Assembly (NCBI GenBank): GCA_030625885.1
Contig: DAOUPZ010000001.1
Coordinates: 186,001 to 250,000, forward strand
Reading direction: 5' to 3'
Length of the DNA: 64,000 nucleotides
DNA from: Clostridia bacterium
GTDB taxonomy: Bacteria; Bacillota; DAOUPZ01
A program made the translations under genes and the position numbers. Shown here piece by piece: positions 11,455 to 61,426 of the stretch (position 1 is its first letter; each line of letters begins with the position of its first letter). The notes beneath the pieces were generated by a model. The model saw only the letters and a program-made list of their open reading frames with translations. It ran no database searches and was not told the origin of the DNA.

Positions 11455-12705
11455 ATGAAATATGAATTGAAGTATGCTAAGGGTACAGTGGAATTTGAAA
11501 TAAATGATAAAAATTATATGGGAGAATTGCTGCCAAATGAAGTTGAATACGATTTAACAGGCGAAGCTGAGGTAGAACGTGCACTACAAAGCCCTATCGG
11601 GACAGCAACAATAAAGGATATTGTAACGCCTGGTGAAAAGATTGCAATCATTACCAGTGATATAACAAGGCCTATGCCAAGTAAAATCGTATTACCGCCT
11701 GTCATCAAAGCTCTTAAACAAGCTGGAATTAAAGAAGAAGATGTAACGGTTGTTTTGGCCCGTGGGAGTCATAGAGGGCATACGGAAGAAGAGAAAAGAA
11801 ACCTGGTAGGGGAAGCGGTATTTGGAAGTAAAATAAATGTGATTGATAGTGACATGGACAATTGTATTAATCTAGGTAAATGCAATAACGGGACACCTGT
11901 AGATATATTTAGACCCGTTGCTGAAGCTGATCGAATTATCTGCATGGGCAATATAGAATACCATTACTTTGCAGGATATAGCGGCGGTTCAAAAGCGCTG
12001 ATGCCCGGTGTATCCAGCCATGATGCCATTCAGGCTAACCACTCCAACATGGTAAAAGAAGAAGCCTATGCTGGAAACCTAGAAACGAATCCGGTTCGAC
12101 AGGACATAGATCAAGTTGGAGCGTTTATAAAAATAGATTTTATTATAAATGTAGTACTCAACAAGAAGAAAGAAATTGTAAAAGCCGTAGCTGGTCATTA
12201 TATAAAAGCGCATAGAGAAGGCTGCAAATATTTAGATAAGATGTATGGCATACCAATTGATAAACAAGCAGATATTGTTATATTATCTCCAGGTGGATTT
12301 CCCAAAGATATTAATATCTATCAGTCACAAAAGGGGCTGGATAATGCCAAACATGCCGTAAGAGAAGGCGGGATCATTATTCTCGCTGCTTCAGCAAAAG
12401 AGAAATTTGGTGAAAAGACATTTGAAGATTGGATGCTCAATAAAGCACCCCAAGAAATGATTAAAGAAATAAAGGAAAACTTTAAATTAGGTGGTCATAA
12501 GGCTGCAGCTATAGCGATGATTTTACAAAAGGCGAAAATATTCATGGTATCAGATCTGGAAGATGAACTGGTAAGAAAAATTAATTTTGAACCATTTGCA
12601 ACCGTACAGGATGCAGTAGATGCAGCACTAAAAGAGTTAGGAGAAGATTCACAAATCATGATGCTGCCTGTTGCTGGATCCACTTTGCCAATATATAAGG
12701 GATAG
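11455..12705 (+). CDS. larA: LarA family protein (nickel-pincer-nucleotide racemase/epimerase)
   Basis: The 416-residue protein is in the lactate racemase LarA family, which uses a nickel pincer nucleotide cofactor to racemise or epimerise 2-hydroxyacids by hydride transfer. The key residues known from Lactobacillus LarA have counterparts: His106 (ARGSHRGHT), His170 (GNIEYHYF), Lys180 (YSGGSKALMPGV, the cofactor-linking Lys) and His196 (QANHSN). Length is usual. larB, larC and larE, needed to build the cofactor, are not in the window. LarA homologs act on many hydroxyacids, so lactate is only one option. It is monocistronic with its own terminator and has a GGGGGGAG ribosome site. Confidence 0.85.
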   Translation: MKYELKYAKGTVEFEINDKNYMGELLPNEVEYDLTGEAEVERALQSPIGTATIKDIVTPGEKIAIITSDITRPMPSKIVLPPVIKALKQAGIKEEDVTVVLARGSHRGHTEEEKRNLVGEAVFGSKINVIDSDMDNCINLGKCNNGTPVDIFRPVAEADRIICMGNIEYHYFAGYSGGSKALMPGVSSHDAIQANHSNMVKEEAYAGNLETNPVRQDIDQVGAFIKIDFIINVVLNKKKEIVKAVAGHYIKAHREGCKYLDKMYGIPIDKQADIVILSPGGFPKDINIYQSQKGLDNAKHAVREGGIIILAASAKEKFGEKTFEDWMLNKAPQEMIKEIKENFKLGGHKAAAIAMILQKAKIFMVSDLEDELVRKINFEPFATVQDAVDAALKELGEDSQIMMLPVAGSTLPIYKG

Positions 12706-16271: not shown

Positions 16272-16976
16272 TTGAACGGTATAAATTGTGAACGTAGGAT
16301 ATATGTCGATAAATTTAATACACATTCTCATTCATTTGCTCAATTAATTTTACCCCTTTATGGAATGCTTTATATAGAAACTAACTATAAAGAACTTATG
16401 CTAGATGATGAACATTTGTTCTTATTGCCTCCAGATTGTGAACACACCTTTAAGGCTGATAAGCGTAATGAATTTTTGGTTTTGGATATACCGCATCATA
16501 TGGTCACTAAACATGATATGGAAAAGATACTGGGTGGTGCTAAGTTTTTATTTGATGATAAATGGAAGGCAATAAGGTTTTTATTATTGAATGAAATTGA
16601 TGGTAAAAAAGGTTCTAGTTCAATTAACAGCTTATTTCATTATTTTTATCAAATGATTGCTAATGACAATACAGCTGATTCTGTAAAATATATTAATGAG
16701 AATTTCGCTGAAGAAATAGATTTAGAGACTTTAGCTCGTATTGAGCATTACAATATAAATTATTATAGCGAATGGTTTAAAAAGACGATGAAGGTTTCTC
16801 CTAAGGAATATATACAAAAATTAAGGGTTGAAAAGGCAAAAGAACTTCTTATAAACTCAGACTTTACAATATTACACATTGCTCAAATGGTAGGATATAG
16901 ACATAATTCTTCCTTGACTAGAATATTCAAAGAGTTAGAAAAAATAACACCTGCAGAGTTTAGAAGGAGAATATGA
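16272..16976 (+). CDS. AraC-family transcriptional regulator with cupin sensor domain
   Basis: The 234-residue regulator has an N-terminal cupin-like ligand domain (HSHSFAQLILPLYG, then FLLPPDCEHTF) and a C-terminal AraC HTH with two helix-turn-helix units (LARIEHYNINYYSEWFKKTM and ITPAEFRRR). It starts with TTG behind GAGGTG. It is transcribed toward the DMT transporter and the Prd-like genes, from which it is separated by a 138-base gap suitable for a regulated promoter. By position it is the likely activator of the selenoprotein operon, and its cupin may sense that operon's substrate. That is inference. Confidence 0.85.
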   Translation: MNGINCERRIYVDKFNTHSHSFAQLILPLYGMLYIETNYKELMLDDEHLFLLPPDCEHTFKADKRNEFLVLDIPHHMVTKHDMEKILGGAKFLFDDKWKAIRFLLLNEIDGKKGSSSINSLFHYFYQMIANDNTADSVKYINENFAEEIDLETLARIEHYNINYYSEWFKKTMKVSPKEYIQKLRVEKAKELLINSDFTILHIAQMVGYRHNSSLTRIFKELEKITPAEFRRRI

Positions 16977-17114
16977 AAATAAGCTAAGAAACAACTTGAT
17001 TTAGGAAAAGATTTATTTAAGCGATGAATTATAATAATATACATAAGAAGTTTTATAAAGAGCTATTCTACAAAATAGTTCTTTATTTTTTACAATTTTT
17101 GAGGAGGTATGATA

Positions 17115-18026
17115 ATGGAGAATTTGTTATCTAAAAGTAAAAAAATCAATGCATATTTTAATTTAGCGCTATGTATTTTATTATGGGCATCAATACCTGT
17201 AGCAACGAAAAAAATTCTTGTAGAGTTAGATAATTTACAAACGTTGTTTTATTCAACTATTTTATCAACACTTGTATTAGGGATATTGCTAATATTTCAG
17301 AAGAAAACGATAGATTTAAAAAAATACAATAAAAATCAATATATTAAAATGATTTCACTTGGATTTTTAGGTAACTATCTATATTATGTTTTCTTATATG
17401 GTGCACTTGAGAGAACAACCGCATCTGAAGGATTCATTTTAGCGTATACATGGCCTATGCTGGTTCTGGCATTGTCTTTTATAATACTTAAAGAAAAGAT
17501 CACTACAAAAAAACTAATAGGTGTTTTTATTAGTTTTTTCGGAATAATTATCATAACAACCAAAGGTGATATAACAGGTTTCAACTTAACAAGCTTATCA
17601 GGGGATGTATTAGCAATTAATGGAGCATTTGTTTTTGCATTGTTTTCAGTATTAGGTAAAAAATTTAACTTTGATAAAACGATAAGTGTATTTATTTATT
17701 TTTTTACTGCTTTAATTTTCTTAATACCAACTGTTGCAATTTTTTCTAAATTTGTTTGGCCAAGTTCGAAAATTTTAATCTGGATAATATATAATGGGGT
17801 ATTTGTAAATGGCATATCTTATATATTTTGGTTCAAAGCTTTAGAGAATGGGGAAACGCATATCATTTCAAATTTGCTGTATTTGACACCTTTTATTTCT
17901 TTAATTTATATTTCAATTTTTTTAAATGAAAAAATATTAACGAGTTCGATAATAGGACTTATAGTTATAATATTTGGAGTTTTATTACAATACTTTAAAT
18001 TGCATATTTTCAGCCGTGAAAGTTGA
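17115..18026 (+). CDS. EamA/DMT-superfamily transporter
   Basis: About 303 residues with ten predicted transmembrane segments and two EamA repeats, the second starting near LAINGAFVFALFSVLGKK. EamA proteins move amino acids, nucleotides or other metabolites, usually as exporters but sometimes as importers. GAGGAGG at 17101-17107 supports ATG 17115 rather than ATG 17109. The stop lies 41 bases before the PrdA-like gene, so it is the first gene of that operon and probably carries the reductase's substrate or product. Confidence 0.85.
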   Translation: MENLLSKSKKINAYFNLALCILLWASIPVATKKILVELDNLQTLFYSTILSTLVLGILLIFQKKTIDLKKYNKNQYIKMISLGFLGNYLYYVFLYGALERTTASEGFILAYTWPMLVLALSFIILKEKITTKKLIGVFISFFGIIIITTKGDITGFNLTSLSGDVLAINGAFVFALFSVLGKKFNFDKTISVFIYFFTALIFLIPTVAIFSKFVWPSSKILIWIIYNGVFVNGISYIFWFKALENGETHIISNLLYLTPFISLIYISIFLNEKILTSSIIGLIVIIFGVLLQYFKLHIFSRES

Positions 18027-18067: not shown

Positions 18068-19543
18068 ATGTCAATTACTGAAGAAACAGGTCAATCACAT
18101 GGTAATGATGGTGATGTAACTCGTTGTAGATTCGAAACAGACACTGTGGTTGAAGCTTCAAATCTCGAAGCACAGAAGGGAAAAGAGATAAGAAAGCTTA
18201 GAAGAAAGTATTTTGAAATAGACAGGGTTGATTTTGGGTCTGAGACAAAAATAGAGGGGACAAAGCTGTATATAAGAGAAGATATTCTTAAAGATGCAAT
18301 TGCATCTCAAGAGTTGGTTGTAGATATGAAATTAGATATTATTACACCAGAAAGATACCAGGAATACAGTGAAACCATCATGGATGTTCAACCGATAGCG
18401 ACAAAAGAAGAAGGAGAACTAGGTGAAGGAATTACTAGAGTTGTAGATGGTGTTATTGTTATGGTAACAGGTACAGATGAAAATGGCATTCAAATTGGAG
18501 AATTTGGTTCTTCAGAAGGAATACTAGATAGAAATATCATGTGGGGCAGACCGGGATCACCAGAAAAGGGTGAAATATTCATAAAAACTGAAGTGAAAGT
18601 AAAAGCTGGTACGAGCATGATAAGGCCAGGGCCTATTGCGGCTCATGAAGCTACAGATTTTATTACTCAAGAAATAAGAGATGCTCTTAAAAAAGCAGAT
18701 GATTGCTTGGTTGTCAATGAAGAAGAATTTAATCAAGTACGACGTCTAGGGAAAAAGAAAGTAGTCATAGTCAAAGAAATTATGGGGCAAGGTGCAATGC
18801 ATGATAATTTCATTTTGCCGGTAGAGCCAGCAGGAACATTAGGCGCTAAGCCAAATATTGATTTAGGAAATGTTCCGGTTGTTGTATCACCCCTTCAAGT
18901 ATTAGACGGATGTATTCATGCATTAACATGTATTGGACCTGCTTCGAAGGAAACGACTAGACATTACTGGAGAGACCCTTTGGTAACAGAAGTAATGAAT
19001 GATGAAGAATTGGACTTAGCAGGCGTAATTTTTGTTGGTTCGCCACAAGTAAACTCAGAAAAATTTTACGTATCAAAAATATTAGGGATGACAATAGAAG
19101 CAATGGATATAGAGGGTGCTATTGTTGCTACAGAAGGTTTTGGAAATAATCATATAGACTTTGCAAGTCATATTGAACAAATTGGTATGAGGGGAATTCC
19201 AGTGGTAGGGGTGACATACTCAGCAGTTCAAGGACAATTAGTCGTTGGAAATCAATATATGACTGCGTTAATTGATAACAATAAATCAGCCAAAGGTATT
19301 GAAAATGAAATTCTTGAAAACAACTGTCATACTTCAGAAGATGCAATACGTACAGTATGTATGTTGAAGGCCAAAATGGGAGGGGAAGAAATAAAGAAAG
19401 CTGAAAGAGAATGGAATCCAAATGTGAAATTAAAAAACATTGAAGCTATAGAAAATCAAATTGGAATAAAAATTGATCTAGTGCTTAATGAACAATCATT
19501 AGAAAAGAGTAAAAAGAGAAAAGAAATTTACGAAGTAGAATGA
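18068..19543 (+). CDS. PrdA-like reductase proprotein (proline/glycine reductase component, predicted pyruvoyl enzyme)
   Basis: The 491-residue protein is homologous to D-proline reductase proprotein PrdA and to the GrdE/GrdG subunits of glycine/sarcosine/betaine reductases. The N terminus (MSITEETGQ, then TRCRFETDTVV) is PrdA-like. In PrdA a Cys is cleaved and converted to a pyruvoyl group that binds the substrate amine. The best candidate here is Cys288 in GCIHALTCIGPASKETTRHY. Cleavage before it would give fragments of 287 and 204 residues, the latter matching the roughly 23-kDa pyruvoyl subunit of PrdA. The N-terminal part is shorter than in PrdA, whose proprotein is about 620 residues from memory. 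The ribosome site is AGGGAGGG. The PrdB-like partner lies downstream. No prdC, prdD, prdE or proline racemase is nearby, so the substrate may not be proline. Confidence 0.85.
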   Translation: MSITEETGQSHGNDGDVTRCRFETDTVVEASNLEAQKGKEIRKLRRKYFEIDRVDFGSETKIEGTKLYIREDILKDAIASQELVVDMKLDIITPERYQEYSETIMDVQPIATKEEGELGEGITRVVDGVIVMVTGTDENGIQIGEFGSSEGILDRNIMWGRPGSPEKGEIFIKTEVKVKAGTSMIRPGPIAAHEATDFITQEIRDALKKADDCLVVNEEEFNQVRRLGKKKVVIVKEIMGQGAMHDNFILPVEPAGTLGAKPNIDLGNVPVVVSPLQVLDGCIHALTCIGPASKETTRHYWRDPLVTEVMNDEELDLAGVIFVGSPQVNSEKFYVSKILGMTIEAMDIEGAIVATEGFGNNHIDFASHIEQIGMRGIPVVGVTYSAVQGQLVVGNQYMTALIDNNKSAKGIENEILENNCHTSEDAIRTVCMLKAKMGGEEIKKAEREWNPNVKLKNIEAIENQIGIKIDLVLNEQSLEKSKKRKEIYEVE

Positions 19544-19556
19544 AAAAGGAGGGATA

Positions 19557-19805
19557 ATGATGAATAGACTAAAATATATGTCTTCTGAAAAATTTTTCGA
19601 AGGAATTATTGTGGGAATAGATGATTGTTCTGTAACAATAGATTTAAAAGGAAGAATGGGGCAACTTAAGGTTCCTCGAAGATTAATAATAACGAATTAT
19701 GAAATATTGCTAGGCCAAGAGGTTGGGTTTATGATGACTTATCCTGAAATATTAGGTCCGGATGTGGATGAAGAATATGAAGAAATTGCAATACGACAAC
19801 GATAA
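19557..19805 (+). CDS. Small protein between prdA- and prdB-like genes (CBO2463/CBO2479-domain type)
   Basis: The 82-residue cytosolic protein looks like a short beta-barrel (FFEGIIVGIDDCSVTIDLKG, then RMGQLKVPRRLIITN). It resembles the small CBO2463/CBO2479-domain proteins found next to proline-reductase-like genes in Clostridia; that name is from memory. It has a single Cys and no catalytic motif. AGGAGG ends five bases before ATG 19557. It lies 13 bases after the PrdA-like gene and 43 before the selenoprotein, so it is part of the operon. A structural or maturation role for the reductase is plausible but unproven. Confidence 0.65.
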   Translation: MMNRLKYMSSEKFFEGIIVGIDDCSVTIDLKGRMGQLKVPRRLIITNYEILLGQEVGFMMTYPEILGPDVDEEYEEIAIRQR

Positions 19806-19848: not shown

Positions 19849-20574
19849 ATGAGTCTAACTATTGTAAAAGGACTACAATCTGAAATATTTGTTCCAATTA
19901 CGCCTCCAATAGTATGGACACCTGTATGGAAATCACTAAATGAAATGGTTATTGCGCTAGTATCTGGTGCAGGAGTACATTTAAAATCAGATAAAAGATT
20001 TAATTTAGCTGGAGATACAAGCTTCAGAATTATTCCAGCAGATGCGTCATGTGATGAATTAATGGTATCTCATGGAGGATACGATAATAAAGATGTAAAT
20101 AAGGATATTAACTGCATGTTTCCAATTGAGAGTATGCGGGAATTAGCAGAAAAAGGTATTATTAAAAGCCTTGCTCCAGTAAACATTAGTTTTATGGGAG
20201 GTGGTGGAGACATACGAGCTTTTACAGAAGAAACAGGTCCTGAAATAGCGAAAAAACTAAAAGAAGCGGGAATAGATGGCGTATTACTTACAGCAGGCTG
20301 AGGGACATGCCACCGCTCTGCCGTGATTGTGCAGAGAGCGATTGAGAAAGCTGGAATACCTACCATTATTATTGCCGCTTTACCTCCTGTAGCAAGACAA
20401 ACTGGTGCCCCTAGAGTATCAGCTCCATTAGTTCCAATGGGAGCCAACGCTGGAGAACCAAACAATATTGAAATGCAAACTGCTATTACATTGGAAACTT
20501 TAAAAGCATTAGTTTCTATTGAAATGCCAGGGAGAATTGTAAGCCTTCCATATCAGTATATTGCGCAAATATAG
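19849..20574 (+). CDS. PrdB-like selenoprotein reductase subunit (in-frame UGA = selenocysteine)
   Basis: The frame runs 150 codons to TGA at 20299-20301 and continues in the same frame for 90 codons to TAG at 20572-20574. Reading TGA as Sec gives 241 residues with Sec151 in LLTAG-U-GTCHRS, i.e. a U-X2-C redox motif (Sec151, Cys154). Length, motif and Sec position agree with PrdB, the selenoprotein subunit of D-proline reductase, which reductively cleaves a C-N bond with the PrdA pyruvoyl subunit. Protein similarity continues naturally past the UGA (VPMGANAGEPNN, typical of the family). A stem-loop just after the UGA serves as SECIS. Ribosome site is GAGGAGGG. A stop-terminated 150-residue protein and a separate 83-residue ORF are artefacts of the UGA. 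The substrate is unknown. Confidence 0.92.
20299..20340 (+). promoter_or_regulatory. Selenocysteine UGA codon and predicted SECIS hairpin
   Basis: UGA is at 20299-20301. The stem CTCTGC (20316-20321) pairs with GCAGAG (20331-20336) and is extended by CG (20314-20315) with CG (20339-20340) past a two-base bulge. The apical loop CGTGATTGT contains G and U residues. The stem starts 12 to 14 bases after the UGA, within the range for bacterial SECIS elements inside the coding region. The window contains no selA, selB, selC or selD. Confidence 0.75.
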
Positions 20575-20585
20575 TATAAATTCAA

Positions 20586-20621
20586 GGTTTCCCATCTTGA
20601 TCTAGATCAAGATGGGAAACC
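20586..20621. terminator. Perfect 36-bp palindrome after the selenoprotein operon
   Basis: GGTTTCCCATCTTGATCT is followed immediately by its exact reverse complement, with no loop bases. It lies 12 bases after the selenoprotein stop and between convergent genes. It lacks a clear T tract, so it may be a factor-binding site or a mRNA 3'-end stabiliser rather than a classical terminator. Confidence 0.6.
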
Positions 20622-60209: not shown

Positions 60210-61082
60210 ATGATGGAAGAAAAAAAATTTGATGTTATTATTATAGGAGGGGGTCCTGCTGGTTTATCTGCAGGTATCAATTGTAACAGCCGTAATAAAA
60301 AAGCGGCTATATTTGAAAATGGACAATTATGTGAAAAAATTAGAAAAGCACCGCATGTTAATAATTTAATAGGTTTTCCTATGGTTACGGGAAAAGAGTT
60401 ATCAGATCGCTTAATTAACCATGCTAGAGAAGCAAATTTGACATTTGTCTCTCAAACCATCAATAAAATTCATCCCGGGGGAGATACTTTTTATATACAA
60501 GCGGGTCAGGAATTTTATGAAACTAAAGCAGTTATTATAACTTCCGGGGTAGCGGTAAAAACAGATTTAAAAGGGGAACTTGATTTTATTGGTAAAGGCG
60601 TTAGCTACTGTGCGACATGTGATGGTTCTTTTTACAAAGGCAAAAAGGTTGCTGTGGTGAGTGACTATGAAAAAGGAGAGGAAGAAGCAAAATTCTTAAG
60701 CGAGATTGCTTCTGAGGTTTGTTATATTCCTCTTTATAGTAATGTAGGAGATTTACCAGATCGTATAAAGGTCATTAAGGATAAACCTCAGGAAATTATC
60801 GGAACAGGAAAAGTAGAAAAATTAATCCTTAAAGAAAATGATATTGAAGTGGATGGCATATTTTTAGAACGTCGTTCTATCCCATTGGTACAGTTGATTG
60901 AAGGATTAGAAAATGATGGTCGGCATATCAAGATAGATTGCGATATGGCAACCAATATTCCGGGAGTCTTTGCTGCAGGGGATTGTACGGGAGAACCCTA
61001 TCAATTACCCAAAGCAATTGGTCAGGGTGCAACAGCAGCATTAAGCGCAGCGCAATGGATGGATAATCAGAATAAAAACTAA
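60210..61082 (+). CDS. Thioredoxin-reductase-like flavoprotein lacking NADPH motifs (ferredoxin-dependent type candidate)
   Basis: The 290-residue flavoprotein has an FAD site IIGGGPAGLSAGINC, the redox CATC (Cys134, Cys137 in YCATCDGSFY) and the C-terminal FAD motif FAAGDCTGEPYQLPKAIGQG. The NADPH-binding domain is unusual. Where thioredoxin reductases have GxGxxA and HRRxxxR, this sequence reads SDYEKGEEEA and CYIPLYSN. That loss is known in ferredoxin-dependent flavin thioredoxin reductases of Clostridia and in related enzymes. It could pass electrons from ferredoxin to thioredoxin-like partners. It is 12 bases after tcdA and probably co-transcribed. GAGGAGGAG precedes the ATG. Confidence 0.82.
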   Translation: MMEEKKFDVIIIGGGPAGLSAGINCNSRNKKAAIFENGQLCEKIRKAPHVNNLIGFPMVTGKELSDRLINHAREANLTFVSQTINKIHPGGDTFYIQAGQEFYETKAVIITSGVAVKTDLKGELDFIGKGVSYCATCDGSFYKGKKVAVVSDYEKGEEEAKFLSEIASEVCYIPLYSNVGDLPDRIKVIKDKPQEIIGTGKVEKLILKENDIEVDGIFLERRSIPLVQLIEGLENDGRHIKIDCDMATNIPGVFAAGDCTGEPYQLPKAIGQGATAALSAAQWMDNQNKN

Positions 61083-61120: not shown

Positions 61121-61139
61121 ATAGCATAAATATATATGT

Positions 61140-61426
61140 AAAAGTTATGACAGGAAGAGTAATTAAAGGTTAGACGCTACAGAAAGCCGGGAGGGTGAGA
61201 ACCGGTACGGATATCTTTGATGAAGGTCATCCTGGAACTGTATTCATTGAAAGACTTCGAGTAGATGGTACCGGGTATTGAAACTCGTTAGCAAATCAAA
61301 GTATCGGATGATGATCCTGTACTTGCAGAGATTATTATCGCAAGATAATGATGAATTTGGGTGGTAACACGAAGGCATGATTCCTTTCGTCCCTACACGA
61401 TGTGTATTGGACGGGAGGTTTTTTTT
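61140..61426 (+). ncRNA. T-box leader upstream of an MBL-fold gene
   Basis: A stem I apical region AGCCGG-GAGGGTGAGAA-CCGGT begins near 61176. A variant T-box core GGTGGTAACACG lies at 61360-61371 and ends in GAAGG. The terminator is CCTTTCGTCC (61383-61392) pairing with GGACGGGAGG (61409-61418, two G-U pairs) before T8. GAAGG/CCTTTC and the GGG/CCC flanks provide the competing antiterminator. So transcription reads through when an uncharged tRNA binds. I cannot fix the specifier codon by eye; GAT or ATC near 61220 is the best place to look. T-boxes normally control aminoacyl-tRNA synthetase or amino-acid genes, not MBL hydrolases. Confidence 0.85.

Follow-up and report, generated by a model that had tools for sequence, protein, structure and literature searches.

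A D-proline reductase core of PrdA and PrdB is encoded in a genome without PrdC. We found it in a 64,000-nucleotide stretch of a draft Clostridia bacterium genome (the window). The PrdA is shortened by most of its N-terminal domain, and by combining this with the absence of PrdC the locus represents a new form of a known enzyme. At a probability of roughly 0.6, we read the locus as a catalytically intact PrdA/PrdB core that has persisted in the absence of PrdC, possibly with thioredoxin as its reductant, as in glycine reductase. If so, a selenocysteine UGA has outlived the loss of its enzyme's usual electron chain.

The in-frame UGA of prdB

The prdB gene (19849..20574, plus strand) encodes the selenoprotein subunit of D-proline reductase, 241 aa long. 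Its frame opens with ATG at 19849, meets TGA at codon 151 (20299..20301, plus strand), and runs on for 90 further codons, beginning GTCHRS, to TAG at 20572-20574. The first-pass annotation had seen an in-frame UGA in a PrdB homolog, family sequence for 90 codons past it, and a U-X2-C motif at Sec151 and Cys154. All of this holds: the read-through protein contains U151-G-T-C154 and scores 389.7 bits against TIGR04483 (cut-off, 300), covering profile positions 1-237 of 238. Identity to the nearest relatives is 81%, and a PDB search with the PrdB sequence returned weak matches to unrelated proteins only.

Standard ORF calling with table 11 breaks prdB into two halves, 19849-20301 (150 aa) and 20323-20574 (83 aa), just as had been predicted. 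Taken at face value, this favors the UGA as a true stop, with a truncated PrdB of 150 aa and a separate 83-aa ORF product. The family data contradict it. When we aligned PrdB homologs at the selenocysteine column, as had been proposed, TGA was present in 85 of 85 loci (the window plus 84 homologous loci from Clostridia, Halanaerobiaceae, Lactobacillaceae, Spirochaetota, Synergistota, Myxococcota, and others), with conserved sequence beyond; none has Cys, and none has another or an ordinary stop. Synonymous constraint extends past the UGA as well: codon identity at the conserved residues 152-166 is 0.54 versus 0.45 elsewhere (p = 0.0017), making this the most strongly constrained stretch of prdB. 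The genome also encodes complete selenocysteine machinery. The suggested search for selA, selB, selC, and selD found all four, with 631.8 bits for selA, 385.9 bits for selB, 396.6 bits for selD, and 68.1 bits for the tRNA-Sec (selC), which adjoins selB. A true stop is thus extremely improbable.

Other genes in this genome carry in-frame TGA codons too: selD has one, and each of three GrdB-type genes has one. GrdE/GrdB-type sets with TGA lie at C12:255418-258000, C9:44686-47300, and C20:61056-63600. The GrdG on contig C9 scores above the sarcosine-reductase cut-off; that of C20 is far below it and may belong to a different reductase.

The UGA is followed by a bSECIS-like hairpin at 20314..20340 on the plus strand, with an 8-bp stem (CGCUCUGC/GCAG(AG)AGCG) and a 9-nt loop (CGUGAUUGU). 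It starts 13 nt 3′ of the UGA, within the 12 to 14 bases given for a stem-loop by the first-pass annotation. Folded alone, the 31-nt hairpin gives a z of −2.56, with 5 of 200 shuffles equally good. The wider 57-nt stretch gives no signal (z = −0.3), a point in favor of a true stop, and the single-sequence fold is therefore weak evidence for the hairpin. The pairing across the family is the better evidence for this predicted structure: over 40 relatives, 83% of cells pair, and 3 of the 8 pairs are doubly changed. The covariation score was matched by 0 of 500 shuffles, but one register shifted along the sequence gave a slightly better score, so covariation cannot settle the matter by itself. RNAalifold did not recover the hairpin from the ungapped alignment, which is probably due to small shifts of the pairing register among variants.

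Reading of the UGA at 20299-20301 as selenocysteine is well supported by these comparisons, and the resident SelA/B/C/D system would decode it as Sec151, guided by the hairpin. Selenocysteine in PrdB is already established in the literature; the C. sticklandii protein has Sec152 in 242 residues (PMC3091704), and a published list counts TIGR04483 among the UxxC selenoproteins (PMC13188914). The PrdB of the window is an ordinary further member.

PrdA with an internal deletion

The prdA gene (18068..19543, plus strand) encodes 491 aa, compared with about 620 aa typically and 583-716 aa in relatives complete in their loci. The protein scores 800.2 bits against TIGR04480 (cut-off, 700), covering only profile positions 162-587 of 587; positions 1-161, the N-terminal domain, have no match in it. 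Alignment with relatives (L049 and L050) places an internal deletion: residues 1-34 are a normal PrdA start, encoded by a remnant of 34 codons at 18068..18169 (plus strand), followed by an in-frame gap of about 135 residues and then the catalytic core. We searched the genome for the missing domain, including as a stand-alone gene, and found only the first 35 residues, within prdA itself. The first-pass annotation mentioned neither this deletion nor the absence of the usual accessory genes. By sequence, the catalytic core is intact, as is the predicted self-cleavage and pyruvoyl site, the CIGPAS motif (within TCIGPAS) at residues 288-293, with C288. A PDB search with the PrdA sequence found no matching chain.

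What was lost appears to be most of a domain resembling SAF/beta-clip folds. A structure model of a relative's N-terminal domain, confident over residues 1-80, is similar in fold to FlgA (Z of 7.3-7.4) and to type III antifreeze proteins (Z of about 7), and the domain matches Pfam SAF (PF08666) with an E value of 0.006 and 17.6 bits, below the cut-off of 21. It also carries an almost invariant Cys-Cys pair. The literature we searched describes no role for the N-terminal domain of PrdA. Among relatives with complete loci, only one other PrdA, L078, is clearly without the domain, and the tree makes this loss a separate event. The opposite of loss is also seen: PrdA proteins of about 680-716 aa in L055, L063, L072, L082, L084-L086, L092, L100, L111, L115, L119, and L120 have two partial copies of the domain. 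Copies just 5′ of prdA, at L070:4547, L084:5177, L086:5176, L095:5323, L105:5372, and L127:4983, are possibly stand-alone small genes.

Since the genome is a draft of 39 contigs, the deletion might be an assembly artefact. The junction, however, is in frame and internal to its contig, prdC is missing as well, and sites invariant in other sequences have changed in the remnant, a drift that no artefact would produce. We consider an artefact very improbable.

The drift of the remnant is informative in its own right. Three of its six near-invariant sites are changed (A16D, C19R, and G25D), against 4 of 143 in the PrdA core (Fisher p = 0.0012) and 1 of 89 near-invariant columns in PrdB. A dead locus or a recent deletion would leave tail and core alike, and they are unlike. 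Because the remnant drifted while the core and PrdB hardly changed, the core has probably been held under selection after the loss of the domain. The constraint on the PrdA core could still be mostly historical; a single genome with the deletion is on the branch.

Missing accessory genes and new neighbors

We searched the whole genome for PrdC by profile, and the best matches reached about 53 bits (cut-off, 490); these RnfC/PrdC-like matches are NuoF-family proteins, and we rejected them as PrdC. Neither did the genome yield a match to the proline racemase PrdF (PF05544). For PrdD and PrdE, the related PrdA profile matches only PrdA itself and GrdE-type genes in the genome, and the window has no separate PrdD or PrdE; PrdR has no match in the window either. 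Across 398 genomes of the phylum, PrdA exceeds its cut-off in 16 and PrdC in 15. Full-length PrdA and PrdC occur in exactly the same 15 genomes, and the sixteenth with PrdA is that of the window, the sole exception in the 398, having neither full-length PrdA nor PrdC. At the level of its class, the search took in this genome alone. The co-occurrence suggests that the N-terminal domain serves PrdC as a docking or electron-entry site; it is a correlation, not proof.

With PrdC, PrdD/PrdE, PrdF, and the N-terminal domain of PrdA all gone, the locus may be a decaying relic: an ancestral or horizontally acquired prd operon in the course of being lost, its prdA-cbo-prdB genes merely without stops yet. 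The drifting tail fits this, as do a somewhat longer terminal branch (0.22 versus 0.10-0.11 in the sisters), the change E185I in the PrdA core at a Glu invariant in 76 of 76 sequences, and the presence of only one genome on the branch. But the core seems to outlast the deletion, with the 1/89 and 4/143 changes accrued while the tail drifted, and the UGA, the hairpin, CIGPAS, the CBO gene, and the ribosome-binding sites of the locus are intact. We therefore think decay unlikely. Transfer of prd clusters is suggested elsewhere in the family, where those of an uncultured Synergistales (L123) and a Treponema (L118) are nested among Bacillota sequences.

The CBO gene, between prdA and prdB (19557..19805, plus strand), encodes a small CBO2463/CBO2479-domain protein (NF041553, 82.2 bits; cut-off, 50); such a gene has this position in nearly all loci and is a standard member of prd clusters. 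About 40 bp 5′ of prdA lies a gene for an EamA-family (YddG-like) transporter (17109..18026, plus strand; PF00892, 137 bits), and no eamA adjoins prdA in relatives L049-L127. An AraC-family regulator precedes it (16272..16976, plus strand; HTH_18, E = 3.6e-20) and is probably a local regulator replacing the usual PrdR; we found no sigma-54 type site, as used with PrdR, upstream of 17109 or 18068. After prdB comes a perfect 36-nt palindrome without a T-run (20586..20621); the 32 nt at its center are found a single time in the window and never in the shuffles. The palindrome is probably a terminator or the end of the unit. Elsewhere, the window encodes a nickel-pincer malate racemase of the LarAH6 family (11455-12705, 561 bits), a TrxB-like protein below the thioredoxin-reductase cut-off (60210-61082), and a T-box leader (61138-61397, 100.2 bits), which is the window's only Rfam match at the gathering threshold.

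These neighbors raise the idea of a repurposed enzyme, in which the core would reduce another cyclic or N-substituted amino acid, with EamA importing it or exporting the product under AraC control. The new EamA and AraC genes, the missing racemase, and E185I at a family-invariant site are compatible with such a change. Against it, PrdB scores far above the cut-off of its equivalog model, the catalytic columns are conserved, and nothing points to any other substrate. The idea is, in our judgment, quite improbable.

Electron supply and comparison with known systems

According to the published scheme, substrate is bound on the pyruvoyl group of PrdA, the selenolate of PrdB attacks, and the resulting selenide-sulphide is re-reduced by PrdC with NADH (PMC3091704). 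Since the catalytic core and the CIGPAS site are intact, PrdA and PrdB of the window should form a working reductase; going by the biochemistry of the family, the pyruvoyl group would bind the amino acid and the selenolate would cleave the C-N bond. At the gene level the genome is without PrdC, so the usual NADH-PrdC route would be closed and the re-reduction step would need another donor. Most likely, electrons would return to the bare, GrdE-like core from the thioredoxin system or from some other dithiol. Thioredoxin would be the most economical donor by analogy, because Grd enzymes, whose GrdE is without the PrdA N-terminal domain, use it, and this same genome also codes for related reductases that have no PrdC (the GrdG above its cut-off, and GrdE/GrdB-type genes with TGA). 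That the TrxB-like protein of the window scores below the thioredoxin-reductase cut-off is a point against this donor. As there is no proline racemase, the substrate would have to be imported in its final form, as either D-proline or a related amine.

More tentatively, and at somewhat below even odds, this may be a PrdC-independent selenoenzyme of the proline-reductase type that shed the N-terminal domain along with PrdC, that domain having been the docking or electron-entry site for PrdC; it would use another donor and perhaps another substrate. The joint loss of domain and PrdC, set against their perfect co-occurrence in the phylum sample, leads to a testable prediction: PrdC delivers electrons at this domain.

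The enzymes of C. sticklandii and C. difficile share with the window a PrdB with Sec in UxxC at position 151 or 152, a PrdA core with the pyruvoyl-forming Cys motif, and a small CBO2463-type gene between prdA and prdB. Unlike them, the window has a PrdA without most of the SAF-like N-terminal domain and a locus without PrdC, PrdD, PrdE, PrdF, and PrdR, with AraC and EamA genes instead; PrdC and the racemase are absent genome-wide. The second prd set of C. botulinum also has prdA and prdB without prdD and prdE (PMC3091704), but it accompanies a complete prd cluster as a partial duplicate, whereas the set in the window is the only one and its PrdA is shortened. L078, from a Myxococcota MAG (JAJSZT010000008), likewise keeps the UGA and hairpin with no N-terminal domain and no PrdC (searched 6 kb upstream). 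It differs in its separate loss, in having no CBO gene, in a racemase-like gene downstream, and in a rearranged 5′ side. The GrdE/GrdB proteins of glycine, sarcosine, and betaine reductases resemble the window in a core without the PrdA N-terminal domain, in pairing a pyruvoyl-type proprotein with a UxxC selenoprotein, and in having no PrdC partner; they are thioredoxin driven. The proteins of the window are nevertheless clearly PrdA and PrdB, above cut-off for TIGR04480 and TIGR04483 and far below it for the specific Grd models.
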